Source: a virus. From it: DNA of 47,128 nucleotides. Position numbers and translations under genes: made by a program. How positions within the stretch are numbered: position 1 is the first letter of the stretch; the number at the start of each line of letters is the position of its first letter. The stretch lies in the IMG/VR virus record IMGVR_UViG_3300020430_000026, positions 1-47,128 of that record; one strand, written 5' to 3'. The notes under the pieces were generated by a model that saw only the letters and a program-made list of their open reading frames with translations, was not told where the DNA came from and did not search any database. Positions 17,658-45,357 of the stretch are shown here, piece by piece.

Positions 17658-20600
17658 ATGGCTGAGTTTAAATTAGGTAGAATACGTTTTGTTTGGAAAG
17701 GTGCTTGGTTCACCGGTAATGAATATTTCATCGATGATGTCGTAAGATACGGTGGTAGAACATATATTGGTATCAAAGGACATACAGCATCTAGCGATTT
17801 CCAGGCAGATTTAACTGCCAACTATTGGGCATTGATGTCAGATGGTCAAGAATGGAAAGGTGATTGGAATGTTAACATCACTTACAAACCAAATGACGTT
17901 GTAAAATATGGTGGTTACATTTATCTATGTAACACAGGACACACTTCTGCAGAACAAGTTGCAGACGGATTAGAAGCAGATCAATCTAAATGGGATTTAT
18001 TTTCTGAAGGATTCAATTACTTAGGTGATTGGGGAACATCTACAAGATACAAAATTAATGATTTAGTAAGATACGGAAATTCAATTTACCTATGTACTAC
18101 TCAACACACTTCATCAGCAACAGCGGCTGGAGGTTTAGAAGGAGATGATGGTGCAGGTAACCAAGCAGATTTAGGAAAATGGGAATTGTTTGCAAAAGGT
18201 TTCGGATGGAACAATGCATGGCAAACTTCAACAAGATACAAACCAAATGACACTGTAAGATATGGTGGACAAGTTTATATTTGTATAACTGGTCACACAT
18301 CGGCGGCAACTGCGGCAAGTGGTTTAGAAAACGATCAAGCAAAATGGGAATACGTTCACAAAGGTATTGAATATTTAGGTGACTGGACAGGCACAACAAG
18401 ATACAAAGTTAATGACCTTGTAAAATATGGTGGTAACATTTGGATTTGTACAGCACATCACACTTCAACAAGTTCATTAGCAACTGATGAAGCGAACTGG
18501 TCAATCTTTGTTCCAGGTTTAGAGTTTGAAGATTCATGGAGTTCAGCAACACAATACCAACCAGGTGACTTTAGTACGTACGGTGGTTATTCTTATGTTG
18601 CAAAAACAAATAACCTAAACAAACAACCAAGTCAATATCCAGCAGACTGGGATTTATTTGTAACAGGATTTAGTTTAAAAGGTGACTACGACAATGCAAC
18701 GGCATACAAAACAGGTGACGTTGTAAGAGTTGGTGGTTTCACATACTTAAACATTGAAGATTCGACAGGAAATAGACCACCAAATGTAACTTATTGGAAT
18801 AAACTTAATGAAGGTTTATACTGGAAAGGTTCGTGGACTAATGCGGCTTACTATGATAAAGGTGACATTGTAAGAGGAACAATTAACACAGACACTTCTT
18901 ATATTTGTATTCAATCACACACAGCAAACAATGTTGGTCCAAGCACAATTAACCAACCAGATGCGGCGCCAGGTGCAGGTGTTGATTCAGGTTCTTACTG
19001 GCAACTTTTATCAGGTGGTCCAGAAAATGATGTAATTTCAGCACAAGGTGATTTATTAATTTACGGTCCGTCAGGTCCAACAAGATTACCAATCGGAAGA
19101 GCTGGTCAATCTTTAGTTGTTAACAACGCAGGTACGTTACCTGAATGGGGATACGTTGGACAAACAGATCAAGTTTATTATGTTGCACCAAATGGTCAAG
19201 ATATTGCGGCACCAGACGCTGGTGTAACTTTAGATAGACCATGGAAAAGTGTAAGATACGGATTATACAACATTGAAAAAGGTCCAAGATTTCCTTTCAG
19301 TACATATTTGTTAGAAAGAAACAAACAATTCATACAAGATGAAATTATTGCTTGGATAAATGACCAGATTGCAAACAATACTCCACCATTTACAAATGCA
19401 TTCACGTACAACGCAACTAAATGTAGAAGAGATATTGGATTATTAATTGACGCAACATTGTGGGATATGAGACATGGCGGCAATGAAAGATCAAGAAAAG
19501 CGGCTTTACAATACTTTACACCAGCAGGTGCTTCTTATGTAAGTGGACAAGAAGCAGAAACGGCGGCATCAATTGTAAGAGCAATTTACATTGCACAACA
19601 AGTAATTGCTAACAACACAGGTTACACAGCAGAACAAGGTGTAACTCCACAATACTCAAATACAAGTTATGTTTCAGAAGCAGATGCAGGAACAACTATT
19701 GAAACATACATGAAATTTTCATCAGATGCAATTACTGCCGGTAACTCCAACGGTGTTCCAGCATTAAGAATTGCAAACACAACTTTAAATGTTAAAACTG
19801 GAAGATATCAAGAAGTTGGTCCAATGATTATTGATGAATCAGTAGCATTGGTAGGTGACGAATTAAGATCAACAGCAATTAGTCCAGCAGGTTCTATAAC
19901 AAATTCAGGTGACACTCAATACAGTTTACAAGGTATTGATAGAATGATTGCAATTTTAAATGATGTTGTATTAAACAATGCAGTTTCAGTAACACCATCA
20001 GGTGGTGTAATTAGTGTTGACAATGATTCTGGACCAAATTTGAATTACAATGATGGTACAGGTACAGGTGTTGCTTCTACAACTACAGGTTCAGGTGTAG
20101 GTGCAACGTTTAACATTACAGTTGCTTCTTTCTCTGTAACATCAATCACTATAAACAATCCAGGACAAGGATATGCATCAGATGATAGAATTACAATTCC
20201 AGCAAACACAGTTATTGTTGGTGGAAGTGGTAACACAACACTTGGTGCTGATTTTAGTTTTGATGCTAATGAAGTAACAACTGGTAATAATATTTCACAA
20301 GATACTACTGCACCAGCAGGTTCGGCGGCGGCAGGATCACGTGCAGTTGTCGTTGCAACAGATATTAAAGAATATATTGACTTTAAAATTAATGCTAACG
20401 GTTCAGAACCAACTATGGCTGGATCAAACATACCTGAAACACTTGCAGGATATTCAGATGCACGTGGTAGATTATTAGCAAACAGAGAATTTATTGCTAA
20501 AGAGGCCGCAGAATTTGTAAAAAGAGCAAATCCAACAGTAACTTTCAGTCAAGGTGCTTGTGAAAGAGATATATCCGAGTACGTTGATGCAATTATACAT

Positions 20601-23381
20601 GATTTAGAATATCATCCGGGTAATTACAGAGCACTAAGAGCGGCTGAATGGTATGTAAACAGCGTTCAAGGTTCTACAACAAAAGATATGTTCTATATGA
20701 GAAACGGTTCTGGCTTAAGAAACTGTACTCTAACAGGATTATCAGGTTCACTAGGATCAGCAAATGCTTATGGAACAAAACGTCCAACAGCAGGTGCTTT
20801 TGTATCGCTTGATCCAGGATTTGGTCCACTTGATTACAAGGCATGGATCGCAACAACAACTGCTGGTACACAACAATTTACACCAACAAATGGTACATAT
20901 GATCCAGCAACAGGAACAACTGTTTTAACTATTGGCAGTCACAAATTACAACCAGGTGACACTGTAAGATTAACAACAGCAAGTTTAACTTTTGAATGTT
21001 CTCAGGACAATTATGCAACTCAACACGCATATCCAAGAGCAACAGACCCTGCGGCAGGAAAAGAAATATTAGTAGAAGCAGTAACTTCAACAACAATTAC
21101 AATTAATGTTGGTGCAAGTGGTGGTGGTGACCAATACGAACACAGATGGGTAAGTGCATCTGCTAACGCAGTACAAGAAGAAACTATAAACAGATTAGGT
21201 GGTAAATCACCATATGTACAAAACGTATCTAACTTTGGTACAGGTGCAACAGGATTAAAAATTGATGGAGATTTACACGCAGGTGGTAACGATTCAATTG
21301 TTGCAAACGACTTTACACAAATTATTTCCGATGGTATTGGTGCATGGGTAACAAACTTAGGTAGATCAGAACTTGTATCTGTGTTTGCTTACTACAATCA
21401 CATTGGATACCTTGCAGAAACAGGTGGAAAAATACGTGCTACAAACGGTAACAACTCTTATGGAGATTTTGGTTCAGTTGCAGAAGGCGTAGATCCAACT
21501 GAAATTCCTGTAACAGGTAGAGTTGATAACAGATCAACAGATGCTCTAGTAGAAAGAGTGTTTACAGATGGTGATCAAATTCTTGCTTTAGAGTTTAGCA
21601 ATGCAGGTAGAGAATATTCTAACGCAACTATTTCAATTGCAGGAACAGGTTATGGTTTATCTGGTGTTACTCCAACATACAACACAGGTGGAATATACAA
21701 AATCAGATTAACAGAAACAATTACTACCCCAGAATCCAACTTAGGTGGTAAAGGTTATGTAACAGCAACCAATGCCGCACAAACAGGTGACTTAACTTCT
21801 ATCACAATAGCAGTTACAGATACAAATCCTTCTAGTGCATACATTGGAATGGCAGTATGGATCTTAGAAGGTTTAGGCGCAGGTCAATTTGGATACATTG
21901 ACACATACAACGCGGCATCTAAAGTTGCAACAGTTAGAAAATATTCAGATGGAACTCCAGGTTGGGATCACTTACTAGGTGACTCTTCTGTAAGTTCATA
22001 TCTAGATGCAACTTCAATTTACGTAATTGAACCTAGAGTTTCAATTCCTGCTCCACAAAATGATGGATCTACTCCACCAAGAAATGCAATAGCGAGAGCG
22101 ATTGTAACAGCAGAACAAGTTTCATCAATTAGAATTTTAGATTGTGGTGCTTCTTATACAAGTGCTCCAACTATAACACTTGTTGATCCTAACAATACAA
22201 CAGATGCTCCGTTACAAGCGTATGTTGGCGATGGCGTATTAGGTCAACCAACTTACACTGTAAGAGGATTTGAATATGAAACTGCAGATGCTACAATTAC
22301 TGAGACAGGAACTCAAGCAACTGTAAGTGGAGTTACTCAAGCCAATCCGGCAGTCGTTACAACTTCTGCGGCACACAACTTTAATAACAATGACAAAGTT
22401 GTATTCACAGATGTTGGTGGTATGATAGAGTTAAACACAGGTGTATATTACTACGTAAAAGTTTTAACAACTGATACTTTTGAAATTTACAAAGATTTCC
22501 AATTAACTCAAGCAATAGATTCAACAAACTTTACTGCTTACTCAGTAAGTAATGGTAAAGCAACAACATTTGGTGGATTTAGAGATGAGTATCAATCAGG
22601 AAAATTCATACAAGTTGAAAATTTAAGTGACTTACCAAGAGCAGGATCAAACATAGAGTTTGGTCACTTGCCAGGAACTTTCTTCAAACTTGTTGCAGTG
22701 AACCAACAGTTAGGTACTCAAGCACCTTACACAGGATTATTACAAATATCTCCAGACTTAAAAGTTTCAGAATCACCAGAACATGGTCAATCACTTGAAA
22801 TGAGAATTAGATACTCACAAGTTAGATTAACAGGTCATGACTTCCTAGACATAGGAACTGGTAACTTTACTAATACAAATTATCCAGGAATACCTCTAAA
22901 CGATCCAGATGGAACAAAAGAAACTGTTGAATCAAATGGTGGAAGAGTATTCTTTACATCTACTGACCAAGATGGTAACTTTAGAGTTGGTGACTTGTTC
23001 AGTGTAGAACAGGCAACTGGTATTGCAACGTTGAATGCAGATGCATTTAACATTTCTGGATTACAAGAGTTGCAGTTGGGAGATTTAGCATTAGGTGGAA
23101 CAAGTGCATCTATTAATGAATTCTCAACTGATGGTACAATGTCCGCAAACAGCGATCAAATCGTACCAACTCAGAGGGCAATAAAGACTTATATCGCTTC
23201 ACAAATTGGTGGTGGTGCAAGTTCTTTGAACGTCAACTTGATTGTCGCAGGTTTCGTAGTAGTTACTGGGCAGACAATTTCAACAACAACTGATACAGGT
23301 ATTAACTTTAATTCTACTGTTAACTTCAATAAAGGAGTTAGTGGTGTACCTGTAGCAATGAACTACTTAATACATAGTTAA
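17658..23381 (+). CDS. Giant fibre: CBM5/12-like repeats, beta-helix with three inserts (1907 aa)
   Basis: Paralogue of the fibre at 12461. Starts AEFKLGRIRFVWKGAW; residues about 12-455 hold eight CBM5/12-like units (NDVVKYGGYIYLCNTGHTS, NDLVRYGNSIYLCTTQHTS). A beta-helix begins at QVYYVAPNGQD (505). Compared with the paralogue it has three extra blocks: a helical module at about 547-695 (LLERNKQFIQDE, CRRDIGLLIDATLWDMRHGG); a mixed block at about 753-1005 with a Gly-Asn beta-repeat and a second helical module (LLANREFIAKE, CERDISEYVDAIIHDLEYH); and the TYDPATG module at about 1074-1183, also found in the fibre at 2272. The scaffold then continues at SPYVQNVSNFGTGATGLK. The C-terminus has SQVRLTGHDFLDIGTG and TDQDGNFRVGDLF like its sister but no BNR-like block. 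Confidence 0.72.
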   Translation: MAEFKLGRIRFVWKGAWFTGNEYFIDDVVRYGGRTYIGIKGHTASSDFQADLTANYWALMSDGQEWKGDWNVNITYKPNDVVKYGGYIYLCNTGHTSAEQVADGLEADQSKWDLFSEGFNYLGDWGTSTRYKINDLVRYGNSIYLCTTQHTSSATAAGGLEGDDGAGNQADLGKWELFAKGFGWNNAWQTSTRYKPNDTVRYGGQVYICITGHTSAATAASGLENDQAKWEYVHKGIEYLGDWTGTTRYKVNDLVKYGGNIWICTAHHTSTSSLATDEANWSIFVPGLEFEDSWSSATQYQPGDFSTYGGYSYVAKTNNLNKQPSQYPADWDLFVTGFSLKGDYDNATAYKTGDVVRVGGFTYLNIEDSTGNRPPNVTYWNKLNEGLYWKGSWTNAAYYDKGDIVRGTINTDTSYICIQSHTANNVGPSTINQPDAAPGAGVDSGSYWQLLSGGPENDVISAQGDLLIYGPSGPTRLPIGRAGQSLVVNNAGTLPEWGYVGQTDQVYYVAPNGQDIAAPDAGVTLDRPWKSVRYGLYNIEKGPRFPFSTYLLERNKQFIQDEIIAWINDQIANNTPPFTNAFTYNATKCRRDIGLLIDATLWDMRHGGNERSRKAALQYFTPAGASYVSGQEAETAASIVRAIYIAQQVIANNTGYTAEQGVTPQYSNTSYVSEADAGTTIETYMKFSSDAITAGNSNGVPALRIANTTLNVKTGRYQEVGPMIIDESVALVGDELRSTAISPAGSITNSGDTQYSLQGIDRMIAILNDVVLNNAVSVTPSGGVISVDNDSGPNLNYNDGTGTGVASTTTGSGVGATFNITVASFSVTSITINNPGQGYASDDRITIPANTVIVGGSGNTTLGADFSFDANEVTTGNNISQDTTAPAGSAAAGSRAVVVATDIKEYIDFKINANGSEPTMAGSNIPETLAGYSDARGRLLANREFIAKEAAEFVKRANPTVTFSQGACERDISEYVDAIIHDLEYHPGNYRALRAAEWYVNSVQGSTTKDMFYMRNGSGLRNCTLTGLSGSLGSANAYGTKRPTAGAFVSLDPGFGPLDYKAWIATTTAGTQQFTPTNGTYDPATGTTVLTIGSHKLQPGDTVRLTTASLTFECSQDNYATQHAYPRATDPAAGKEILVEAVTSTTITINVGASGGGDQYEHRWVSASANAVQEETINRLGGKSPYVQNVSNFGTGATGLKIDGDLHAGGNDSIVANDFTQIISDGIGAWVTNLGRSELVSVFAYYNHIGYLAETGGKIRATNGNNSYGDFGSVAEGVDPTEIPVTGRVDNRSTDALVERVFTDGDQILALEFSNAGREYSNATISIAGTGYGLSGVTPTYNTGGIYKIRLTETITTPESNLGGKGYVTATNAAQTGDLTSITIAVTDTNPSSAYIGMAVWILEGLGAGQFGYIDTYNAASKVATVRKYSDGTPGWDHLLGDSSVSSYLDATSIYVIEPRVSIPAPQNDGSTPPRNAIARAIVTAEQVSSIRILDCGASYTSAPTITLVDPNNTTDAPLQAYVGDGVLGQPTYTVRGFEYETADATITETGTQATVSGVTQANPAVVTTSAAHNFNNNDKVVFTDVGGMIELNTGVYYYVKVLTTDTFEIYKDFQLTQAIDSTNFTAYSVSNGKATTFGGFRDEYQSGKFIQVENLSDLPRAGSNIEFGHLPGTFFKLVAVNQQLGTQAPYTGLLQISPDLKVSESPEHGQSLEMRIRYSQVRLTGHDFLDIGTGNFTNTNYPGIPLNDPDGTKETVESNGGRVFFTSTDQDGNFRVGDLFSVEQATGIATLNADAFNISGLQELQLGDLALGGTSASINEFSTDGTMSANSDQIVPTQRAIKTYIASQIGGGASSLNVNLIVAGFVVVTGQTISTTTDTGINFNSTVNFNKGVSGVPVAMNYLIHS
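17691..19020 (+). repeat. Eight CBM5/12-like coding repeats
   Basis: Eight units of about 50-60 residues with the same Trp / D-x-V-x-Y-G-G / Tyr-x-Cys / His-Thr-Ser / Trp pattern as at 12494. Units 2-5 are closely alike (W-G-T-S-T-R-Y-K-x-N-D style), pointing to recent internal duplication; units 6-8 have diverged and lost the Cys-His pair in places. Confidence 0.65.
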
Positions 23382-24146: not shown

Positions 24147-25112
24147 ATGGCAAGTTTAAAGTCGTTATTAGCAACTAAATCAGACGCATTCGCAACGCCT
24201 GAAGAAGAACAGAACTTGGAAAAAGGTAGAATCTTTACTTACAATCCAGGAACTAACTATTCAAGACTATGGTGTTGTTTTTGTTTCCATCCTGAGGAAT
24301 CAGGAATTGCAGTCGTAGACATTTGGGGTGCTGGTGGATCAGGCGCAGAGATGTGCTGTTGTGGTTTTGGACTAGCAGGTAACTCAGGTGCATACACAAG
24401 AAGAACAGTTGTAATGGCTCCAGGAGATTACATTGAAGGTCGTGTTGGTATTGCTTGTGGTAATGCCGATTCTTTATGTTTTAGAGGTTGTTCAGAAGCA
24501 ACCTGTGTAAGATATTGTATATCAGGAATTTGTACTTGTACTTGTACAGAAGGTGGAAGAGGAGGAATTTCTTTCTGTTCTACTAACTCATCATTTTATT
24601 GTTGTTACAGAGCAAATGGTTTCTGTTACACAAGAACAGACAACGATAACTGCGGAATTATTTGTAACAAATGTAATGGTTCTTTCGAAGGAAGATCATT
24701 CAACGGTGATATTAACTGTCCAAGTAGAATTTCATGTGTAAGTGCGTTTGGATGTTATCCAGCGTGTATTTGTATGTTTAACTACCACATACCTACTCCG
24801 TATGGACAGTTTTCATTATGTGGTAACAAACCAGTTTTTGCAAACGAAAACAGAACTCAGTCAGCAGATTGGTCAGGTCAAGGTAGACACCAACACGTTG
24901 CAACACTAGGATCTGGTAGATGGCCAACAGGAGGAATTCCATTCTCAACTTGTTGGGGTAAATCAGGTGCTTGTAACTGTTACAACAATGAAGGTTGTGT
25001 ACCAGTTATGCCTTATGGAACTGGCGGTATGGGACCTTTCCCATGTCCAGGTGTAAGGGATCACGCAACAAGAGGCGGACACGGAACTGTAAGAATTAAA
25101 TTTATAAGGTAA
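24147..25112 (+). CDS. Cysteine-rich Gly-rich adhesin-like protein A (321 aa)
   Basis: First of three tandem paralogues. By my count 32 of 321 residues are Cys, including a CCC triplet and several C-x-C and C-C pairs. The frame matches a glycine-rich phage adhesin: a strand with VDIWGAGGSGAEMCCCG (about 56-72), a GNSGAY turn, then Gly-rich loops and a closing GTGGMGPF ... RGGHGTVRIKFIR, where the sandwich-ending strand is expected. N-terminal ASLKSLLATK and NLEKGRIFTYNPG are shared with the other two. There is no signal peptide, CxxCH haem site or regular zinc finger. Role inferred: receptor-binding virion protein whose loops are stabilised by disulfides or metal. I recall similar proteins in marine T4-like phages but know no assigned function. 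Confidence 0.6.
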   Translation: MASLKSLLATKSDAFATPEEEQNLEKGRIFTYNPGTNYSRLWCCFCFHPEESGIAVVDIWGAGGSGAEMCCCGFGLAGNSGAYTRRTVVMAPGDYIEGRVGIACGNADSLCFRGCSEATCVRYCISGICTCTCTEGGRGGISFCSTNSSFYCCYRANGFCYTRTDNDNCGIICNKCNGSFEGRSFNGDINCPSRISCVSAFGCYPACICMFNYHIPTPYGQFSLCGNKPVFANENRTQSADWSGQGRHQHVATLGSGRWPTGGIPFSTCWGKSGACNCYNNEGCVPVMPYGTGGMGPFPCPGVRDHATRGGHGTVRIKFIR

Positions 25113-25121
25113 GGATAAGAT

Positions 25122-26153
25122 ATGGCAAGTTTAACAACACTACTTAAAAACAAATACTCGTTTTTCGTTGGTAACGAGCAAAACCTTGAAAGAGGTGAAA
25201 TATATTCTTACTATCCAGGTAACCACTACACAAACTTTAGATGTCATGTGTGTTGGGTTCCACCAAGAGCAGGTTGTGCCAGAATAGAAATTTGGGGTGC
25301 AGGCGGTTCAGGTGCAGAGATGTGCTGTTGTGGTGGAGGATTACCAGGAAATCCAGGTGCATATTCAACAAAATGTATTAGAATTGAACAAGCAGATATA
25401 GATGGTGGAGCATCATTTGTATGTGGTGTAATTGGTTTTAGTTGTGGTAACTCAAGTGATTTATGTCACAGAGGAAGATCAGAGCCAACACAAATTTGTT
25501 GGTTTGGTAACAATCAACAAGACGGTTGTATGTGTGCTCAAGGTGGTAAAGGTGGATACTCATATTGTTCAACTGGAACATCATTGTACTGTTGTTTTGT
25601 AGCAGGCGGATTCTGCGGAAACAGAGTAGGTAACGATGGTTGTGGAGTTGTATGTAATTACAAAGGTGCCGCTGATACTGATTGGTGTGCTCAAGCATAC
25701 GGTGGAGATATCAACTGTTATGGTGGTTTCTCTTGTGCAAGATTTGAAAGATGTCAACCAAACTGTAACTGTGGTAAGATAATGATTTTAAGAATACCAG
25801 CAGGTATGTGGTCAGAATGTGGTGGAGAAATTCACTATGCAGTTGACCAAAACGGTAGAAGATACAGACACTCAGGTGCAGGTGGACACATGGGAGCAAC
25901 TCACCCATTAAACTTAATGGGAAGAAATCCAACACAAGGTTCGGCTTACAGTGCTTGTTGGACAGGTAATACAAGTTGTGGATGTTATGAATGGAACGGC
26001 TGTACAGCATTTATGCCAGCAGGTATTCCAGGACAAGGACCAACACCATGTGATGGAGTAAGAGATCACGCACACAGAGGTGGACATGGAATGATTAGAA
26101 TAAGATTTATAGCGGATACGGATGAAGATCCAACATATCCGGAATACCAATAG
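25122..26153 (+). CDS. Cysteine-rich Gly-rich adhesin-like protein B (343 aa)
   Basis: Second tandem paralogue, nine bases after the first, with an AAGGATAAG ribosome site. I count 30 Cys in 343 residues. Conserved frame: ASLTTLLKNK, NLERGEIYSYYPG, IEIWGAGGSGAEMCCCGGG, GKGGYSYCSTGTSLYCC, GGFCGN, GGDINCYGG, a TSCGCYEWNGC cluster, and RDHAHRGGHGMIRIRFI near the end. It alone has an acidic tail (DTDEDPTYPEYQ). The regions between conserved cysteines differ strongly among the three, as expected for receptor-contacting loops on a common core. Confidence 0.6.
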   Translation: MASLTTLLKNKYSFFVGNEQNLERGEIYSYYPGNHYTNFRCHVCWVPPRAGCARIEIWGAGGSGAEMCCCGGGLPGNPGAYSTKCIRIEQADIDGGASFVCGVIGFSCGNSSDLCHRGRSEPTQICWFGNNQQDGCMCAQGGKGGYSYCSTGTSLYCCFVAGGFCGNRVGNDGCGVVCNYKGAADTDWCAQAYGGDINCYGGFSCARFERCQPNCNCGKIMILRIPAGMWSECGGEIHYAVDQNGRRYRHSGAGGHMGATHPLNLMGRNPTQGSAYSACWTGNTSCGCYEWNGCTAFMPAGIPGQGPTPCDGVRDHAHRGGHGMIRIRFIADTDEDPTYPEYQ

Positions 26154-26168
26154 GAGTAAATAGAGCAT

Positions 26169-27137
26169 ATGGCAACACTTAAAGGACTTTTAATACAAAG
26201 AAACACTGCTGTACCTCAGGAAGAAAACCTAGAAAAAGGTTATATCTGGTCGTGGACTCCTGGTTCAGATTTCACAAACTTTTGTAATGGTATTTGTTGG
26301 ACTGCTCCAGCAAACGGCGCCGCACTAATTGAAATATGGGGTGCTGGTGGATCAGGTTCAAGAATGTGTTGTTGTGGTGACGGATTACCAGGAAATGCTG
26401 GTGCATACGTTAAAAAATCTATTCAAGTAGAACAAGGTGACACAGTAACTGGCTGTACAGGAATGCCATGTTACGCTCACCCATTATGTTTTTCAGGATG
26501 TTCAAATGCAACAGGAATTTGTATTGTAACAGCGTCTAACGGTGACCTATGTATGTGTGCTGAAGGTGGAAGAGGTGGTACTTCTTTCTGTAACCCAAAT
26601 ACACACTCATTATTCTGTTGTTTCAGAGCAAACGGTTTCTGTGGTACAAGATGTAACGAAAACTATTGTGGAGTGATTTGTAATCACTGCTCAGGTGCAT
26701 GGTGTGCCTTTGGTTATGGTGGAGACGTATGTTGTTGTGGAAATGTTGGATGTGTAAGTTTCTTTGGATGTTATCCGCATTGTAAATGTCAATTCCAAAG
26801 ACACGTGCCAACTCCAGCAGGTTTATTTGCTGAAGAAGGCGCATTGATTACTTTCCAAACTGAATCAGATGGAACTCCGATGTCACAATGGTCAGGTAAC
26901 CAATTATTCCAGTTTTATGCGGCACTAAACTCAACTTCTAGAGCACCTAGAATGGGAACTCCAAACAGTTATTGTTGGAGATCGGACAGATCTTGTGGAT
27001 GTTATGAAATGCAAGGTTGTGCAAACTACCTACCAGTTGGTACAGGTGGTATTGGTCCGAATGCTTGTCCTGATGTTAGAGATCACGGTATCAGAGGTGG
27101 ATTCGGTGGCGTAAGAATTAAGTTTTTAGCAGACTAA
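26169..27137 (+). CDS. Cysteine-rich Gly-rich adhesin-like protein C (322 aa)
   Basis: Third tandem paralogue. I count 33 Cys in 322 residues, including two CCC runs (SRMCCCGDG and DVCCCGNVG). Shared frame: ATLKGLLIQR, NLEKGYIWSWTPG, IEIWGAGGSGSRMCCCG, GGRGGTSFCNPN, FRANGFCGT, SCGCYEMQGC, then RDHGIRGGFGGVRIKFL. It shares FRANGFC and FFGCYPHCKC-type segments more with copy A (YRANGFC, AFGCYPACIC) than with copy B. GGAG precedes the ATG; an AGTAAATA stretch there may simply be part of the ribosome-binding spacer. Confidence 0.6.
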   Translation: MATLKGLLIQRNTAVPQEENLEKGYIWSWTPGSDFTNFCNGICWTAPANGAALIEIWGAGGSGSRMCCCGDGLPGNAGAYVKKSIQVEQGDTVTGCTGMPCYAHPLCFSGCSNATGICIVTASNGDLCMCAEGGRGGTSFCNPNTHSLFCCFRANGFCGTRCNENYCGVICNHCSGAWCAFGYGGDVCCCGNVGCVSFFGCYPHCKCQFQRHVPTPAGLFAEEGALITFQTESDGTPMSQWSGNQLFQFYAALNSTSRAPRMGTPNSYCWRSDRSCGCYEMQGCANYLPVGTGGIGPNACPDVRDHGIRGGFGGVRIKFLAD

Positions 27138-27845: not shown

Positions 27846-27884
27846 TCATGTAACTGTGTGTTCTCGATACATACAGTTACATGA
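27846..27884 (+). promoter_or_regulatory. 16-bp hairpin burying a start codon
   Basis: Left arm 27846-27861 and right arm 27869-27884 pair over 16 bp with one G-T wobble around a seven-base loop (TCTCGAT). The ATG of the glycosyltransferase gene (27881-27883) lies in the right arm, and no ribosome site is visible upstream. No T-run follows, so it is not a canonical terminator. Occlusion of the start, opened by an upstream ribosome or RNA-binding protein, is inferred. Confidence 0.55.
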
Positions 27885-28834
27885 ACACTCAAAATAAAAG
27901 ATCCAAAGCAATATTTCTAAACGGTGGTATAGGAAGAATCTTATGTGCCATTCCTGCAATAGAAAAATATCAAAAAGAATCAGGTGACGAAGATTTTATT
28001 GTCGTCATTGAAGGCAAATGTAACATATTAGATGGGCATCCAACATTGGATAGTAAAGCCTATGATATGTATCATAAAAATTTATTCCATACACATATAA
28101 AAAAGAGAGATATAATAAGTCCAGAACCATACAGAGTGTATGAATACTTTTCACAGCAGTGTAACCTATCACAAGCATTTGATATCATATTAAATGATAA
28201 AGGCGTTAGAGAATTAGATAAACCTAAACTTTATCTTTCTAAAGAAGAAAAATTGAAAGCAACTGAAATTTTAAATGAATGCAAAGAAAAAATAAAAGCA
28301 GACAAGTATGTTGTATTTCAACCTTTTGGAAGAGCAATAAAACAAATCGATTCAAGTTTTGTTGACCCTAGTAATAGAAGTATAGAGTATACAAATTTCA
28401 AAAGTATTATTAAAAAATTACACAAAGAAAAGGTTGGTGTAATTGTAATGAGTGACTTTGGAATTGAACTTAAAAAAGAAAATTTTGAAATGGATATAGC
28501 ACAACCAGAAAATATAGATTTAAGAATATGGGCATCTATAATTGAACAAGTGGATCATTTTGTTGGTTGTGATTCTGTTGGACAACACTTTGCCTACAGT
28601 TTAGGAACACCGTCCACTGTTATAACAGGTGCAACATTTCCAAAAAATACATCTTATCCAGATACAAAAGATGTAAACATTATTGATCTTGGACAAAATG
28701 ATAGACAATATGATCCTATTAGAATTACATTCGATGAAAGAATAAGTCGTGTTAATGAAAACCTAATGTTTATGACGCCAGAAATAGAAGACTATGTCAT
28801 AGACACAATACAGGGAAGAGAAACTGATGAGTAA
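27881..28834 (+). CDS. GT9 (heptosyltransferase)-like glycosyltransferase 1
   Basis: A 317-residue soluble protein with the GT-B layout of family GT9 (ADP-heptose transferases). Residues 14-29 (LNGGIGRILCAIPAIE) match the N-terminal nucleotide-fold entry, and near 230 DHFVGCDSVGQHFAYSLGTP matches the family's D-(S/T)-G-x-x-H-x-A donor site, followed by VITGATFPKNTSYP. The Asp that serves as base in WaaC (GD in the first loop) aligns with Arg (GIGR), as in the paralogue at 30634. Expected reaction: sugar transfer from an ADP- or NDP-heptose-type donor to an unknown acceptor. The ORF overlaps the carbamoyltransferase by eight bases. Its start sits in a hairpin. Family confident; substrate inferred from hldE and hldD elsewhere in the window. 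Confidence 0.75.
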   Translation: MNTQNKRSKAIFLNGGIGRILCAIPAIEKYQKESGDEDFIVVIEGKCNILDGHPTLDSKAYDMYHKNLFHTHIKKRDIISPEPYRVYEYFSQQCNLSQAFDIILNDKGVRELDKPKLYLSKEEKLKATEILNECKEKIKADKYVVFQPFGRAIKQIDSSFVDPSNRSIEYTNFKSIIKKLHKEKVGVIVMSDFGIELKKENFEMDIAQPENIDLRIWASIIEQVDHFVGCDSVGQHFAYSLGTPSTVITGATFPKNTSYPDTKDVNIIDLGQNDRQYDPIRITFDERISRVNENLMFMTPEIEDYVIDTIQGRETDE

Positions 28835-30641
28835 GAAAACAGGATACATAGCCGCAATAGCCAGAGGGCATAATTCCGGAGTATGTTTATTAAAAGATGG
28901 AAAAATAGTTTTTTCTATGGAAGAAGAAAGATTAAGCCGTGTAAAATATGATGGTGGACCATATGCATCAATGGTTAAAATATTAGAATACACAGATAAA
29001 ATTGATTATCTAGTTATTGCACATACACAATCGCTTAAAGATAGAAGCACAGGTAGAGTAGATTACAATGGTGACGATGTATACACAGGACTAGCAAGAA
29101 AGTTAGGATTAATTGATAAAAAAGGAACAGCAAAATCTCCAGATCATCCACAAGTCATTGATCTTTCTCACATTCATCACAAATTGCACGCCGCTTTGGC
29201 TTTTTACAGATCAGGTTGGGACGATGCCGCGGCTTTGATCGTTGACGGTGCTGGAACTTTTATTCCTGCAACGCATAGTGCAGGTCATCAGATGACTGTT
29301 TTCGAAACAGAAACAATATTTGATTGTTCATATCCAAATGATTTTATTACAAAATACAAACACTATGGTACTAGTGAAAATTGTCAATGTGCATATATTC
29401 CTGCATATCCATCAGATTCCATGGGAGAACCAGGAAGCACACACGAAGCAGTATTTTCTGATAGAGCAGGAATTGTAAAAGTATACGAAGCAGTAACTCA
29501 ATACTGTGGATTCAGTGCCATTGAAGCAGGTAAAACAATGGGATTATTTCCATATGGAAAACCAAATAAAGAAATTCCTGAACTTTTTGTTCATAATGGA
29601 AAAGGTACGTTAAGTAACAGGAACGTTATTATTCCAACTTATCCTAATGCGGCTCTTGTAAATTATGACAACTACCACAGTTTAGAAGAAAAATTACAAG
29701 TTGACCAAAAAGATTTAACAACATTACAGAGTAGAAGAGATCTTGCTTATGCTTGTCAAACACAAACACAAGAAGAAGTTAGAAAATTAATTTACAAAGC
29801 AGTAGAAATGACAGGCAAGAAAAAAGTTGTTATATCAGGAGGATATGGATTAAACTGTGTTGCAAACTACTATTACTTAGACACTTTGCGTAAAGATGGT
29901 ATAGAAATATATGTAGAGCCAGTATCAAATGATGCAGGAACGGCTATGGGAGCGGCTTTATTGTACTACTACTCATTATCACAAAGCACAGATAAAGACA
30001 CAACAAAAACCCTTTATCTCGGCCCTAAGTATAATTTAACTAACGAAGACATAATGAAATACAATGACGAAAACGGTATTGAAGTTGTAGATTGCACTGA
30101 TGAAGAAGTAGCAAAACTTTTAACTGAAAAAAATATTGTTGCATTATGGCAAGGTCAATCTGAAAACGGTCCAAGAGCATTAGGGAATAGAAGTTTATTA
30201 TTTGATCCTCGTTTTAAAGACGGTAAAGATTATGTTAATAGAGTGAAAAGAAGAGAATACTTTAGACCATTTGCTGGTTCTATACTGCATGAATACACAC
30301 ATGAATGGTTTGATTTACGTGGTATGGAAGACACTCCACACATGATGTACGCAGTAAATTGTAAACCAGGAGTAGAAGAAAAAATACCAAGCATTATACA
30401 CGTCGACGGTACTTGTAGAATTCAAAGTGTTAAAAAAGAAGACAATGAATTGTATTACAGATTAATTAAAAAGTTCCATGAAATTACAGAATGTCCAATA
30501 GTGTTTAATACCTCATTTAATTTAGGTGGCGAACCTTTGGTAGAAACTGTAGATGATGCTGTAAGAACTTTACAAAACTCAGATATAGAGTATCTATATC
30601 TAATTGAATATGGAAAATTAGTGAAGGTGAAAAATGGATAG
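28827..30641 (+). CDS. NodU/CmcH/TobZ-family O-carbamoyltransferase
   Basis: 604 residues, about the family length. The N-terminal Kae1/YrdC-like part has GHNSGVCLLKDG (14-25), MEEERLSRVK (31-40), the metal-binding HHKLHA (117-122), VDGAG (139-143), SGGYGLNC (337-344) and SNDAGTAMGAAL (367-378). The C-terminal domain has GQSENGPRALGNRS (443-456), FRPFAG (479-484), VDGTCR (526-531) and NTSFNLGGEPLV (561-572). All are hallmarks of enzymes that make carbamoyl-AMP from carbamoyl phosphate and ATP and pass it to a sugar hydroxyl. It overlaps the glycosyltransferases on both sides by eight bases, so a product of these transferases, or a nucleotide sugar, is the likely acceptor. A GGGAAGAG site precedes the ATG. 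No key motif appears broken. Confidence 0.9.
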   Translation: MSKKTGYIAAIARGHNSGVCLLKDGKIVFSMEEERLSRVKYDGGPYASMVKILEYTDKIDYLVIAHTQSLKDRSTGRVDYNGDDVYTGLARKLGLIDKKGTAKSPDHPQVIDLSHIHHKLHAALAFYRSGWDDAAALIVDGAGTFIPATHSAGHQMTVFETETIFDCSYPNDFITKYKHYGTSENCQCAYIPAYPSDSMGEPGSTHEAVFSDRAGIVKVYEAVTQYCGFSAIEAGKTMGLFPYGKPNKEIPELFVHNGKGTLSNRNVIIPTYPNAALVNYDNYHSLEEKLQVDQKDLTTLQSRRDLAYACQTQTQEEVRKLIYKAVEMTGKKKVVISGGYGLNCVANYYYLDTLRKDGIEIYVEPVSNDAGTAMGAALLYYYSLSQSTDKDTTKTLYLGPKYNLTNEDIMKYNDENGIEVVDCTDEEVAKLLTEKNIVALWQGQSENGPRALGNRSLLFDPRFKDGKDYVNRVKRREYFRPFAGSILHEYTHEWFDLRGMEDTPHMMYAVNCKPGVEEKIPSIIHVDGTCRIQSVKKEDNELYYRLIKKFHEITECPIVFNTSFNLGGEPLVETVDDAVRTLQNSDIEYLYLIEYGKLVKVKNG

Positions 30642-31590
30642 ACAAAGTGCTTTTTTTATGAATGGCGGTGCTGGTAGGCATATCAGTTCAATACCTGCTT
30701 TAGAATTATATGCAAAAGAAAATCCTGATGATGATTTTATAATTGTATGTGAAGGTGGTACTGATGCTTATAAAGGACATCCATTACTACACTTCAGAGC
30801 ATATGATAATTGGCATAAAAATTTATTTCAAGATTTGTTAAAAGATCGAAACCTTATTTCACCTGAACCTTATAGAGTATGGGAATACTACAATCAAAAA
30901 TGTAGTCTTGCGGAAGCATATGATATAGCAATTAACAAAAAAGGACTTCGTGACTTGCCTAAACCAAGAATTTTCCTTTCAAAAGAAGAGATATTGATGG
31001 CAAGACAAATGCTAACTGAAGTAAAAGAGAAAACTAAGAAAAATAAAATTGTTTTAATACAACCTTTTGGAAGAGGTGCTGATAAAAAGTCAGAATCTGA
31101 GGTCATTGACCTTACAGGTAGAAGCATAGAATTAAAAAATTTATGGGCAATAATTAAAAAGTTAAGCAAAGATTACGGCGTAATGGTAATGAGTGAATTT
31201 CCATTAGAATTTAAAACACATGGTGGAATTAATCAACCAGTAGCACTTCCATTACAAACACATATAAGAATATGGGCCGCTTTAATTAAACAAGCAGATC
31301 ATTTTCTTGGATGCGACTCTGTAGGGCAACATATTGCATATTCATTTGGTAAGACTATGACAGTGCTAATAGGTAGTACTTTTCCTATTAACACATCTTT
31401 CCCAGAAAATGACAAAGTAGATATCATTGATTTGGGCAAAGACAGCCGTATATACAGTCCAATACGTATTACACAGGACGAATACTCCGACCGTTTAAAT
31501 GAAGGAATCATGGAAATGGACGAAAATCAAGAGCAAAAAGTGGTCAATTCAGTCAAGTTCATGATCAAGCACAAACACAAAAAAAAGTAG
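30634..31590 (+). CDS. GT9 (heptosyltransferase)-like glycosyltransferase 2
   Basis: Paralogue of the gene at 27881 throughout: MNGGAGRHISSIPALELYA at the start, then HLLxFRAYDNWHKNLFQDLL-like, LISPEPYRVWEYYNQKCSLA, IQPFGRG, and near 230 DHFLGCDSVGQHIAYSFGK with LIGSTFPINTSFP. Again the first loop reads GAGR where classical heptosyltransferases have GD. The tail is very basic (KHKHKKK), unlike its acidic-ended paralogue, perhaps contacting membrane or nucleic acid. An eight-base overlap with the carbamoyltransferase and an AAGGTG site indicate coupled translation. Two diverged copies may add sugars to different positions or acceptors. Confidence 0.75.
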   Translation: MDRQSAFFMNGGAGRHISSIPALELYAKENPDDDFIIVCEGGTDAYKGHPLLHFRAYDNWHKNLFQDLLKDRNLISPEPYRVWEYYNQKCSLAEAYDIAINKKGLRDLPKPRIFLSKEEILMARQMLTEVKEKTKKNKIVLIQPFGRGADKKSESEVIDLTGRSIELKNLWAIIKKLSKDYGVMVMSEFPLEFKTHGGINQPVALPLQTHIRIWAALIKQADHFLGCDSVGQHIAYSFGKTMTVLIGSTFPINTSFPENDKVDIIDLGKDSRIYSPIRITQDEYSDRLNEGIMEMDENQEQKVVNSVKFMIKHKHKKK

Positions 31591-34059: not shown

Positions 34060-37000
34060 ATGGCAAAACGTAAGGTAGTAAATTATATATTTCAACCAGG
34101 AATACCAAAGTCTGGAAATCTATTTCCTAATGCATTCGATTTAATACAAAATAACTTAGAATTTTTAAAAGATGAATCTGTTGCGTATGTTTCAGACAGA
34201 GTAGCAACTGACACAGCGGCAAATAATTTTCCAAATGCTGTTGCTAGATTAGATAATAACAAAGAATTCATTAAAGACGAAGTAGCCGCTTACGTGGCGC
34301 AACAAGTTGGATCAGCAGTACCTCCATTCGCAGGATATGGTTATGATGTTTTAGCACTTGAAACTGTAATAGACGATTACATAACAAGATTAAGAAATGA
34401 TGTAAGATATGGTGGAAATGAAAACATGGTCGCTTTTGCACAAAGTTACTATACAGATGGATCACTTAACATACCGGGAGACGGTGAGCCAGAAGTAGCA
34501 TATTTTGAATTTGCAAGAGATCTTTGTAACAGTTACATTTTACCAGGAGTGAACTGGAGTAATTTACAAAGTGTAACAAGTCAAGATACATCAGGTGGCA
34601 GTGCAGAACCAACTGGCACAACAACATTTACAAACCTTGCAAATGGCTTTATCAACGTACTAGATAACGGTATTATAAACTTACCAACATTGGTAAGCAG
34701 TCCTTACATTTTTGCTGGATACACATACAATTCTGCAAAATGTGAAAGAGACATGGGATTCAACATCACAGGATTTTTAAATGATTTAAGATACAACGGT
34801 AACCAAGACACAAGATTCAATGCATCAAAATATTGGATTGGATCCACTCCGCAAATTGACGGAGATAGACAACCTGAAATACTTGTAAAAAATCATATAA
34901 GAGATGTAATAAACAATTTTATTTTAACAAGAACTGCTTATACTTCACAACAATCACCTGTAGTAACAACACAATATTTTGGTACTGCGGCTGGTGAAGC
35001 CGGTGCTTCTGCAAGAATAACAGCATTAACATTTATAATCACTGATGTAATTGATAATGGGTTAGATAATTTACCAGCATTGGAAAGAAATGAAATAAGT
35101 TCAATAAAAGCGCCAACAAAAATTGGATTAGAAGATATATTATTAATTACAAATACAACACGTAACAAAGTTTTATATAACTTTGCTGATGCAACGCTGG
35201 GTGCTGAAGTTTCTTATGAACAAGAAGACGATGCAGACTATCCTACATTTTTACAAAATACCGATACAATCACAACTGTATTTTTAAACTTTGATACAAG
35301 TACTTTTTCTTCAACTGATACAATACAAATGTTTGTTGAGGACAAAGTAATAAGAACAAGACCTTTTGATTTTGGAACAGATGCTATTGAAAGAATGAGA
35401 GTAGCACCTGCTCAATCAATGCTTGATGCTGACTTTGAATATGGTTTACAGCCTACGAAGTGGCAAGCCATTGGAACACAAAGAGGATATCCTTCAATTT
35501 ATGAAATTCCAGGAACTGATATTGATGTAGATGATGTAACTACAGACGCTTCTGCAGGAACTAATGGTATTGGTTCTTCTTTAATAACAGTAAACACAAC
35601 AGGTCCGCACAATTTTGAACCTGGTGATGCATTTACAATTATTGGTTTTACAAACGGTGTACCTGGAAGTGGAAGAGCACAAGGTTCTTTTGTAGTAAAC
35701 ACTATTCCTACAAATAGACAATTTACATATTACGCAAAAGCAAAAGTTGGTGTTTCTAACCCAACAACAATTAGTACAACATTCACACAATTAAGAGCGG
35801 CAGGATTTTATTCTGGTGCAACAATTGGTAGACCAACTTTTAGTGTATCATCAAACGGTGCAAACGGAAACTTTATTTTGCCTATAGGTGGACTTGCAGG
35901 AGTTTCTATTATTCCTTTCCAAGATGCACAAACTCCAGAGATAGGTGCACCTATAACTGGAAGTGGAATGGCAACTGGTGCACAAATTACTGCCGTTACA
36001 GGAACAGGTTCAACACTTGCTACACCTGAAATTGAAGGTGACTACACAGCAGGAGCAACAGAAATAAATGTTGTTGATTCCGCAGGAATATTACAAAACA
36101 GTATTATAGATAGAGGTGATGGATTTGGTGTTGCAATTACAAACGTATCAGGAAACTCTTTAACATTAAGTTCTGGACTAACAGGAAACTTAATTGGTGA
36201 TAGAACAACTTATGGAAACATTGGTGGATTTAATCAAAATCCAGCAGGACAAAATTTTGCTTGTGATGTTTTCAACAATGCTGGAGTTTACAGTATTACT
36301 GTTTCAAATTCTGGTGAAAATTATGCAGTAGGTGATGCGATTGTAATTACAGGAGACTTAATAGGTGGAGCGACTCCGGCTAATGATTTAACAATTAGTG
36401 TTGCTTCAATTGATACAGGCGGAGAAGTTTTAACATTTACATTAGATGGTGATGCATTTACTGGATCAGGTTCTAAAACAGCAATTACAGGAACGTATCA
36501 AAACGGAAATGGTACAGGTGGTGGCTGGGATATTACAAAAACTAATAACAGTTATTCCGCAAGTTTAAGAAATCCAAGTTTCACAGCAGTAGAAGGATCA
36601 GTTGCTGGAGGTTCAGGGTCAGGTTTAGAATTAGATGTAACAATTAACAACAACGCCTACTCTGCGGTACTAGGTGGAGATGATGCAAGTACAGGATACG
36701 TTGTAAATGATGTTATACAATTTGCTGGAGGAACATTCGGCGGTACATCAAATGAAAATTTATTTGTTAGAGTTACAGGAGTAAGCGGTTCAGGTGCAAT
36801 TACAACTTTTACAACTTCAGGAACGGCTCCAGATGCATTAGAAAGTTACAACATAGGCGTAAGTGATTATACAGCAAGTGCCTCAGGTGCAGGTGCAACG
36901 TTCACAGTAACAAGAACTGGAACAACATATTCTGCAACAACAACTGGATTAGGATCAGGATTTGTTATTAATGAAACATTATTAATAGCCGGCACACTGT

Positions 37001-40000
37001 TAGGTGGTACTAGTCCTGCAAATGATTGTACAATTACAGTTGACGCGATAGATGGTAGTGGTGGAATAATTGGGCAAACGCCAACAGGTACAGCAGTAAA
37101 CAGTAAAACATATTTAGATGTAGATTCAGGATCCAACTTAATTGGTAATGGTGCTTCATTTGACATTGCATTATCAGGAACTTCTTACAACACAATCACA
37201 GTAAACAATGCAGGACAAAACTATGGACAAGGTCAAGACATTGTAATTCCAGGAACTTCTTTAGGTGGTGTATCACCAACACATGATTTAACAATTAACA
37301 TTGCTTCTTTAACAACACCAGCAAGAGGAGTTGCAACGTTTACTAACAGTGGTACTGCCGCAAATGGTGGTACAGCAAATTATAAAGTTGGAGATATTAT
37401 AAAATCAGAAGGCGCAGGTTTAGGTGGCGTCACAGGAACTAACGATGCCATTATTAAAGTTGCATCTATAAATGGTGACTCTTCTATAAACACATTTACA
37501 GTAACAGGTACTGCCACAGATGCAGTAGTGGATTACACAAATCCAACCTACACAGGTGGTGATGGTATAGGTGCAAACTTTACTGTAACTAGAACAGGCA
37601 CAGTATACAGTGCAACAATAGATCCAGCAGGTACTGGATACAACGCAACAAATCAAATTGTAGTTGCTGGTACTGACTTAGGTGGAACATCTCCAGGAAA
37701 TGATTGTACAATTACAGTTGATTCTGTAGATGGTGCTGGTGGAATAGCAACTATCACAGTAACAGGTACAGCGGTAAATGTACAAGAATACACAAATGCG
37801 TCAGTAACAAATCAAGTTGGTCAAAATGCTTCTTTTGATGTAACATTGAATGCAGGATCATATTCAATTGCAGTAGCAAACACAGGTAATGATTACGGAA
37901 CTGATCAAACTTTTGTAATTCCAGGCACAGACTTATTTGGAACATCACCGACAAATGATGCAACAATAACAGTTACAGGTGTCAACGCATCAGGTGGTAT
38001 TACAGGTGCAAATATTTCAGGTACTGCTAACCAAGGTAGTGCAAGTACTTTAGGAGTTTCAGGAGCAAACAGACAACCACAAGGTGTTGGTGCAACTTTC
38101 AGTGTTCAAAGATCAACTACTGCTTCGTCAACGGATTATGTAGAAGTAATTGTATCAGGTACAGGTTCAAATTATCAAGTTGGTGATAGAATTACACTTC
38201 AAGGACAAAGTTTAGGTGGTAGTTCACCAGCAAATGATATCACTGTAACAGTGCAGGGCGTAAACACAACAGGTGGAATTTTAACAAATACACACTCAGG
38301 TGTTGCGGCAGGTGGTACTGGTATTTCAGTATATTCTAGTGTAACAATATCAGAACCAACGTCAAGCAGTATTCCACAAAGCACACAATTAGTTTACAGT
38401 GCATTGGCAACTATGCAGATTGATTTTGAAACACCACATGGACTTGTTCCAGGAGATGCTTTCTTGGTAACAATTCAATCAGATGATGGTAATAACAATC
38501 ACTTATTAGCATCAGGACCGTTTTTAGCAACGTCGATTCCTACATTAACACAATTACAATATCAAGTAAGAGCACCAGGAACAATTACTGACAGTGCTTG
38601 GCAAGGATTTATATATGTAAGACCAGACTCCTTCTTTGTTCACAGACCATTTGATGGTGGTGTTCAATTAGGTACAGGTGGTCCACAACACGGTGCACAG
38701 GCAATACGTCAATCTAAAAAATACATTAGATATCAATCAGGTAAAGGTATTATGTACACAACTGGTGCCTTGTTTGCACCAAGTTATGACTTACTAAATG
38801 TTACTGCTGACGCAACAGCAGTAGGTTCAACAATTACAGTAACAACAGATGATACTGATCACGGACTACAAGTTGGATCAAGAGTAAGACTGATTGGTAT
38901 TGGTACTTCAGGATACAACGGATTCTACACTGTTGCAAGTGTGGTAAGTGAAAGACAATTTACTGTATTAGCAGTGCAGTCTTTAGGAAGTACTGTTGCA
39001 GAATTTGAGGATCAACCTCAAGTATCATTGTCAAACTGGAACGGTGCAACTGTTCGTTCAGGAACGTTTGATGATCAAAACGGAATTTTCTGGCAGTATG
39101 ATGGTGGTAATTTAGCGGCTGTACAAAGAACTTCAACAAGACAAATTACAGGTACAGTAACAGCAACACCAGACTCTAACTCAATAACAGGTGAAGGAAC
39201 AAGATTTAGAGAACAATTAAAAGCAGGTGACAGAATTGTAGTAAGAGGAATGACACACGTTGTTGCTCAAGTAAATTCAAACACACAGATGTTTGTTACT
39301 CCAGATTACAGAGGAGTAAATGTTTCAGCAGGTGTCAAGGCTTGTTTAGTATTAGATAAAGTTGCAAAACAAAGCGAATTTAATTTAGATACAATTGACG
39401 GCAATGGTCCGAGTGGATACAATTTTGATCCAGGCAAAATGCAGATGATCGGGATACAGTTTTCATGGTACGGGGCTGGATTTATTGATTTCATGACTAG
39501 AGGATCAAATGGTGACTTTGTGTTTGCTCACAGAATGAGAAATTCAAACGTAAACACAGAAGCATTTATGAGAACAGGTAACCAACCTGTGCGTTATGAA
39601 GTTGCAAACGAAGGTCCTAGTGGAAAATTAGAATCTAACGTTAATGCAACTGCAACAGAATTACCATTAATAGATGCATCATTCTTTCCAACTACAGGTG
39701 GAACAGTTTATGTTGATAATGAAATTATTACGTTTACAGGTGTATCAGGAGATAAACTAACAGGATGTACACGTGCGGCACAGTTAACAAACTTTGCTTC
39801 AGGTGCCACAAGATCATATTCGGCTGGTCCGGCTTCAGAACACTTTAGAAATACAGGTGTTGTTTTAATATCTAACACAACATCACCTATTATATCACAC
39901 TGGGGATCAGCATTTATTACAGATGGTAACTTTGATGAAGATAGAGGATACTTATTCAGTTACTCAGCATCAGGTTTGGATATCACAACAACAAGACAAA

Positions 40001-41049: not shown

Positions 41050-41481
41050 TTAAAGTAATTTTTTGGCTAAACTTTGTTGGTCAGTAGGACTTACTGGTGT
41101 CTTTTGTCCATCACCAGGAATAACTCTGTAATTGTCATCTGGATCATCCATTGTGCTAACTTCTGTCACACTACCTGTATCTGTTGTACAAATAAGTTGA
41201 TGTGGCATCAATGGAGGATTATGCCATGTAGCACCAGTTTTTAATGGCTTTTCATATAAAGTTGCTGTCTTTGTGTCAATATATCTTAATTTAAATTCGC
41301 CATCATTTACAAACCAAGTTTCATCTTTGTTTTTATGAAAATGCATTGAAAATTTTGCATCTTTTTTAGTGAATACTAAAAACTTACCACAGTAGTGTTC
41401 GTTGGATGCCCACACAACTTCATATCCCCAACCTTTTTCAATCTTACCTTCTTTATTAAAATTTTTCGACATATTGTTCAA
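41050..41481 (-). CDS. Cupin-fold sugar-metabolism-like protein (143 aa)
   Basis: A single-domain cupin. EKGWGYEVVW (15-24) is the entry motif of mannose-6-phosphate-isomerase-type cupins; HFH (47-49) with Glu54 and His94 in PPLMPHQL supply the usual metal ligands. The C-terminus has TEVSTMDDPDDNYRV, shared by small sugar-isomerase-like cupins. Two starts are possible: TTG at 41481, five bases after a GGAG, or ATG at 41472, 14 bases after it; I keep the first on spacing. The gene overlaps the end of hldD by 26 bases, so a role in nucleotide-sugar or heptose metabolism is likely, perhaps isomerising or epimerising a precursor. Exact reaction unknown. Confidence 0.7.
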   Translation of the reverse strand: MNNMSKNFNKEGKIEKGWGYEVVWASNEHYCGKFLVFTKKDAKFSMHFHKNKDETWFVNDGEFKLRYIDTKTATLYEKPLKTGATWHNPPLMPHQLICTTDTGSVTEVSTMDDPDDNYRVIPGDGQKTPVSPTDQQSLAKKLL

Positions 41482-42268
41482 TTGTACTCCAATCTACATT
41501 TACAAATTTATTTACTTTAGAATTATCAGCCCGTGTGTAACTTTGGTAATGCTTTTTGATATTTTCCGGCATTGGTATTTCTTCTATTTTGGCATTAAAT
41601 TTATTTGCTATTACCTCAGCCACGTGTTTAAAACTTATGTTGGTACCGGTGCCAACGTTGAACACACCAGAAGTATCTGCTAAGAGCATTTGTTTGTGGA
41701 CTTCACAAACATCATGTACACTAACAAAATCACGTGTGTAATTTTCACTTCCTTCAAATATTTTAATTACACCAGTTTGTTTTGCTTGATTTATAAACTT
41801 ACTTACAGGACTCATCTGATTGCCTTTATGATCTTCCATTGGGCCATAAACATTAAAATATCTAAATCCTTGCACTAATACATTAAACTCTCCTGCTTCT
41901 TTTACAAAACGGTCAAACAAATATTTGCTCCACGCATATGGAGATTGAGGTCCTACTGAATCTTCTTCATTGAAATTTTTTGTATCGCCATATACACTTG
42001 CGGAACTGGCATATTGAAAATTTGTACCCATCTGTTCGCACATCTGTAACAGACGCATACTGTATTCATAGTTTTGTGTAAGTATTTTGTCAACATTAGT
42101 TTCAGTAGTGGAACTAATTGCTCCTAAATGTATTACCCAATCATACTTGGATGGATCAGGATAAACATTTGGAGTATATTCAAATCCTTCAACTGTATGA
42201 TCTTTTTCTATATGCTGTATTAAATTTTGTCCTATAAAACCAGCGCCACCTGTAACTAATATTCTCAT
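41456..42268 (-). CDS. hldD: ADP-L-glycero-D-manno-heptose 6-epimerase
   Basis: Extended short-chain dehydrogenase/reductase. GGAGFIG (7-13) binds NAD(P); SSAS (88-91) and YAWSK (Tyr111, Lys115) form the catalytic set; FRYFNVYGPMEDHKGN carries the second HldD lysine (Lys148), and IKIFEGSENYTRDFVSVHDV plus NIKKHYQSYTRAD follow the HldD pattern closely. It epimerises ADP-D-glycero- to ADP-L-glycero-manno-heptose. At 270 residues it is shorter than the 310-residue E. coli enzyme, mostly between the Rossmann strands. It starts immediately after the SGNH gene's stop. With hldE in the same operon it completes the last steps of ADP-heptose synthesis; gmhA and gmhB are not in the window. Confidence 0.88.
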   Translation of the reverse strand: MRILVTGGAGFIGQNLIQHIEKDHTVEGFEYTPNVYPDPSKYDWVIHLGAISSTTETNVDKILTQNYEYSMRLLQMCEQMGTNFQYASSASVYGDTKNFNEEDSVGPQSPYAWSKYLFDRFVKEAGEFNVLVQGFRYFNVYGPMEDHKGNQMSPVSKFINQAKQTGVIKIFEGSENYTRDFVSVHDVCEVHKQMLLADTSGVFNVGTGTNISFKHVAEVIANKFNAKIEEIPMPENIKKHYQSYTRADNSKVNKFVNVDWSTIEQYVEKF

Positions 42269-43054: not shown

Positions 43055-43055
43055 C

Positions 43056-45349: not shown

Positions 45350-45357
45350 TATTTAGA
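45350..45357 (-). promoter_or_regulatory. Possible late promoter box TCTAAATA for the heptose operon
   Basis: On the minus strand TCTAAATA overlaps the gp15 stop codon and ends nine bases before the NUDIX ATG. It matches the TAAATA core of the plus-strand boxes. The spacing is short, as at 32162, so readthrough from gp15 may contribute. Confidence 0.4.

Follow-up and report, generated by a model that had tools for sequence, protein, structure and literature searches.

Three adjacent cysteine-rich genes in a fragment of a marine T4-like myovirus probably encode receptor-binding tail-fibre tips with a TG (TNF-like plus glycine-rich) fold, accompanied by the gene of an assembly chaperone. The fragment is a 47 kb virus record, the whole of which was analysed and is called the window here. 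The three genes are separated by gaps of 9 and 15 bases, and about one in ten residues of each product is cysteine besides 14–17% glycine (Table 1). The initial annotation had described them as adjacent paralogues, which agrees with the 45–49% identity of the other two to paralogue 1; its positions and reading frames were exact, and of its cysteine counts (32, 30 and 33) the first and third were right while the second protein holds 31. It had also placed these counts far above those of any other gene in the window, and indeed the 26 remaining genes hold 77 cysteines in 14,212 residues (0.54% on average, 2.1% at most), so that chance can be excluded as the source of the cysteine content (binomial probability of about 1e-27 to 1e-30 for each count). 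Nearly all cysteine codons of the triplet are TGT, which fits an AT-rich genome. Among 1,475 open reading frames of at least 200 aa in the fetched loci the cysteine fraction is bimodal, with almost all values below 5% or above 8% and a single one between. Promoter and terminator scans stayed near chance level.

The triplet follows, in this order, baseplate wedge genes, a fibre connector, two large fibre genes and two small fibre-like genes. On its 3' side lie a 215 aa gene and then two similar genes (317 and 318 aa) that enclose one for a carbamoyltransferase, and farther downstream the minus strand carries an epimerase, a PfkB-cytidylyltransferase fusion, a NUDIX protein and a gp15-type tail sheath stabiliser. 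Several further features of the window were recorded. The second large fibre protein contains six CBM_5_12 carbohydrate-binding stretches (E 1e-30). The carbamoyltransferase (Carbam_trans N and C; 27881–31590 including the flanking genes, which gave no Pfam match) is likewise found 3' of the cysteine-rich genes in several cyanomyoviruses. A 2325 aa protein without Pfam match occupies 34060–41037, and the sugar-nucleotide genes at 41456–44913 (minus strand) comprise an NAD epimerase, a 2OG-Fe(II)-like protein below the cut-off and the fusion, which is of the HldE kind. The sheath stabiliser (45353–46795, minus strand) is nearest to those of the jumbo phages Phosso, Atu_ph07 and PA5oct and not to those of the cyanophages in the collection.

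Table 1. Baseplate, fibre, predicted adhesin and chaperone genes of the window.
Feature	Position	Strand	Remarks
Baseplate wedge genes	2272, 5611		
Fibre connector gene	10773		
Large fibre genes (two)	12461, 17658		
Product of the second large fibre gene, 1907 aa, possible tip carrier upstream of the triplet	17658..23381	+	phrog_9851 tail fiber, E 7e-200
Small fibre-like protein, 106 aa	23393..23713	+	phrog_11338 tail fiber, E 1e-10
Small fibre-like protein, 110 aa	23761..24093	+	phrog_9648 tail protein, E 1e-8; phrog_4302, E 3e-15
Cys-rich predicted TG-type adhesin, paralogue 1	24147..25112	+	321 aa, 32 Cys; phrog_4205, E 9e-9
Cys-rich predicted TG-type adhesin, paralogue 2	25122..26153	+	343 aa, 31 Cys; phrog_4205, E 9e-10
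Cys-rich predicted TG-type adhesin, paralogue 3 (modelled)	26169..27137	+	322 aa, 33 Cys; phrog_4205, E 2e-15; AlphaFold2 and Foldseek
Probable tail-fibre assembly chaperone, 215 aa	27184..27831	+	phrog_9740; profile link to PF16778-passing homologues

To identify the fold, paralogue 3 was modelled with AlphaFold2 from an alignment of 64 family members (mean pLDDT 80.9, pTM 0.80) and compared with the PDB using Foldseek. The best match was the tail fibre of cyanophage Pam3 (7ypx_A, E 1.8e-6, probability 1.00), and the leading 26 matches all belong to this fibre, to the Bxb1 tail tip or to the TG domains of ALK/LTK (probability 0.94–1.00), followed by a gap down to the next, unrelated match at 0.04; TM-scores are low to moderate (about 0.4–0.5 for Pam3). 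In the BFVD the best matches of the model were hypothetical proteins of S-CAM3 and P-SSM2 and glycine-rich phage proteins. At the sequence level, relatives from S-CAM1, S-CAM3 and S-SSM7 pass the gathering cut-off of the Pfam family Gly_rich_2 (PF21722) with 40.4, 33.9, 26.4 and 24.9 bits against 24.3, several of these cysteine-rich cyanophage proteins covering nearly the full model, while the window proteins stay below it (11.5 bits or no match), the sub-cut-off match of paralogue 1 being nearly full-length. A profile–profile comparison connects the passing cyanophage relatives with the window clade (E 1.4e-21 and 6.9e-9), so the predicted link of the window proteins to Gly_rich_2 is one that runs via relatives and structure. 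A search of the PDB by sequence returned nothing. On this model a TG fold is very likely for all three proteins, and a role as virion adhesin is predicted with good confidence. The initial annotation had called them glycine-rich and adhesin-like, a description supported by the Foldseek match to Pam3 gp24 and the TG fold, the Gly_rich_2 matches of the cyanophage relatives and the fibre and chaperone genes next to them. Composition, fold, relatives and gene neighbours together thus make receptor-binding tail-fibre tips the most likely identity.

The closest structural counterpart, Pam3 gp24 (PDB 7ypx, 7yfw), combines the same TNF-like and glycine-rich domains, and its distal glycine-rich part has been proposed to recognise the host (PMC9608196). 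The two systems also differ, since gp24 is a single gene forming a homotrimer with a long helical shaft whereas the triplet consists of three paralogues, for which the model shows just a short helix at the N terminus, and the glycine-rich domain of gp24 contains 39% glycine compared with about 15% glycine and 10% cysteine in the triplet proteins. Similarly, three canonical cyanophage frames of Gly_rich_2 that were examined hold 117–134 glycines and 1–2 cysteines, unlike the triplet; with hhalign, three canonical glycine-rich domains poor in cysteine gave local matches alone, and we therefore claim no residue-by-residue map of glycine replaced by cysteine. Tip adhesins of the gp38 type (Salmonella phage S16 gp38, PDB 6F45) likewise expose variable distal loops on a glycine-rich tip lattice (PMC9608196), but S16 gp38 has a three-layer lattice and a beta-helix middle domain, and it is absent among the Foldseek matches listed for the paralogue 3 model. 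The ALK/LTK domains (7nx1, 7mzy, 7nx3; E about 1e-4) have the TG fold in common with the model but are animal receptor ectodomains.

The gene on the 3' side of the triplet is conserved within the cassette and is probably a tail-fibre assembly chaperone. All seven S-SSM7-type homologues submitted pass the Phage_tail_APC family (PF16778), both of those scanned against PHROGs match tail-fibre-assembly families, and the window protein has phrog_9740 in common with them besides a profile–profile match (E 2.8e-9). Its AlphaFold2 model (pLDDT 96), a beta-rich N-terminal part followed by a C-terminal helical hairpin, found no match in the PDB with Foldseek. By analogy with Pam3 gp24, which has a known partner chaperone, gp25 (PMC9608196), and from the position of the window gene, we infer that its product would fold these particular tips. 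Between the window and two related loci (L004 and L005) the chaperone is 64–66% identical and the neighbouring adhesins 87–93%, so the chaperone diverges faster.

For the search of relatives tblastn was of little use, as paralogue 1 gave nothing at 1e-5 against phage records and paralogue 3 weak matches alone at E up to 10 (best 4e-4), the likely cause being low-complexity filtering and composition correction; loci and profiles were therefore used instead. A scan of IMG/VR yielded 77 loci with 43–98% identity, nearly all with three tandem cysteine-rich genes, and these relatives keep about 30 cysteines each. Two more scans seeded with S-CAM1 and S-SSM7 proteins led to other clades. In cultivated phages the equivalent slot is filled by hypothetical proteins, namely SXBG_00226-00224 in S-CAM1, T040910_100-102 in S-CAM3 and SSSM7_114-116 in S-SSM7 (28–30 cysteines in about 262 aa), and P-SSM2 has two cysteine-rich genes of this kind, PSSM2_304 and 306. 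The cassette of fibre, cysteine-rich paralogues and chaperone homologue is present in the window and in the isolates S-CAM1, S-CAM3 and S-SSM7. The PHROGs family phrog_4205 matches the window proteins weakly and those of the latter three isolates strongly, and phrog_35878 covers the P-SSM2 type, yet neither family has an assigned function there. Among open-licence PMC papers we found none on a cysteine-rich tail adhesin of cyanophages or marine phages. A search for psbA in 18 window-clade records, of which two exceed 350 kb and any may be a fragment, gave nothing, so cyanobacteria are probably not the hosts of this clade. Locus L083 is a contig assigned to a marine Euryarchaeota MAG (PAOW01000006.1); it carries copies 2 and 3 at 93–96% identity and is probably a misbinned phage contig, and an apparent swap of its paralogue 1 turned out to be caused by the contig end.

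By automatic count, exactly three copies are present in 127 of the 148 interior loci, and several of the exceptions are counting faults, as the loci L055–L059, L219 and L123 in fact hold three. Ten long records (69–364 kb) hold exactly three copies each and none further. True exceptions are a single-copy group (L208, L210 and L217), in which the gene stands in a different context after other small genes, and the two copies in P-SSM2 and AG-345-F15. Within the window clade each of the copies 1, 2 and 3 is a lineage of its own that extends across phages; the copy label changes 6 times, compared with 41.8 in shuffles. When all types are placed in a joint tree, each of them groups by itself, with a support of 99–100 for the window, S-SSM7 and P-SSM2 types and of 82 for the S-CAM1 type, which suggests that each type multiplied on its own. 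According to this topology tandem triplication would have arisen at least three times in aquatic phages, although gene conversion between neighbours could mimic the pattern. A speculative explanation, which we hold to be possible but rather doubtful, is that the paralogues form one asymmetric A:B:C heterotrimeric tip locked by interchain disulfides or metal, in which case the triplications in three lineages would be convergent conversions from homotrimer to heterotrimer. Three separate homotrimeric tips would be the simpler arrangement.

To judge the cysteines themselves, 65 sequences of the window clade were compared: 20 columns hold cysteine in at least 90% of them, and 12 of these columns do not vary at all. 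With a mean of 0.80 per column, cysteine is conserved more strongly than any other residue class, tryptophan and glycine included. About 16 cysteine columns are common to at least three of four divergent clades and the others are clade-specific. About ten cysteines per protein lie at variable positions. The variance of the cysteine count is 8.7 compared with 6.4 expected from independent columns; as the spread is no narrower, we claim no special rule on the total. Odd and even numbers occur 33 to 32 in the 65 sequences, and co-gain and co-loss of variable cysteines on the tree showed no clear excess, two pairs changing together three times, which equals the 95th percentile of the null (two). 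Random parity and the lack of paired change both argue against complete intrachain disulfide pairing; the latter test covers the variable cysteines and cannot address the invariant ones. These data are compatible with disulfides inside the invariant core, with bonds between chains or with metal sites of an unconventional kind, any of which may be present.

Our best guess, and a tentative one, is that the cysteines mainly serve to staple the glycine-rich lattice by disulfides once the host cell has lysed. The tips would fold inside the reducing host cytoplasm, helped by the downstream Tfa/APC-type chaperone, attach distally to the fibre encoded upstream and use loops of the glycine-rich half to bind the surface of the host. 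After lysis closely spaced thiols would oxidise to disulfides, which would staple the extended glycine strands so that the exposed tip stays rigid and protease-resistant. Disulfides forming after release had been among the options of the initial annotation and are still the likeliest of them, even if the random parity and the unpaired change of the variable cysteines speak against the idea. Its remark that virion proteins are seldom rich in cysteine is broadly right, with the exception of phage Milano, whose virion contains an extensive disulfide network and whose structural proteins hold 2.1% cysteine (PMC10811340). With Milano there is thus a case of a phage virion with numerous disulfides, but its bonds are interchain and occur in the sheath, the baseplate and the bases of the fibres instead of a glycine-rich tip (PMC10811340).

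Less probably, the cysteines of the same adhesin tip bind metal (Zn, Cu or Fe, possibly as clusters), being loaded in the cytoplasm and holding the lattice or aiding docking to metal-uptake receptors. About 30 cysteines are kept although some positions turn over, CC is modestly enriched (1.2–1.9 fold) and so is CxC (1.0–1.4 fold), random parity is the expectation for metal sites, and metal suits folding in a reducing cytoplasm. Against this, Zn ribbons, rubredoxin and many Fe-S sites are marked by CxxC, and this motif shows no enrichment in three clades (observed to expected 0.40, 0.94 and 1.01) and hardly any in the small P-SSM2-type set (1.19); histidine makes up just about 2%. The missing CxxC enrichment argues against classical Zn or Fe-S sites, and the metal or Fe-S loading offered by the initial annotation loses its usual signature. 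It is unlikely that cysteine merely serves as a small residue that packs well into a tight lattice of glycine, without special chemistry: changes of cysteine are indeed unpaired and the variable ones swap with many different residues, but the invariant columns show no substitution by alanine, serine or glycine, contrary to a rule of size only, and cysteine is conserved more than glycine on average. Free thiols reacting with thiols or disulfides of the host surface, giving a covalent and irreversible attachment of the same tip as in the third option of the initial annotation, seem a distinctly improbable use; the roughly ten cysteines at variable positions would resemble exposed loops and odd counts leave at least one cysteine without intrachain partner, yet about 20 of about 30 cysteines are nearly invariant like core rather than contact residues, and a reaction partner is not known. 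Finally, that the proteins are secreted or intracellular, metallothionein-like and not part of the virion is very unlikely given the TG adhesin fold of the model, the fibre and chaperone genes as neighbours, the many aromatic residues and the confidently folded model.

The triplet proteins resemble, in a form loaded with cysteine, the glycine-rich tips that let some phages grip their hosts. This gives a likely structural identity to a family of hypothetical proteins that is widespread in aquatic T4-like phages and includes the cultivable isolates S-CAM1, S-CAM3, S-SSM7 and P-SSM2, and its members become candidates for host recognition in phages with mostly unknown adhesins. Two questions follow, namely why one residue in ten should be cysteine in an adhesin that is assembled in a reducing cytoplasm, and why three tandem copies of it are so common.
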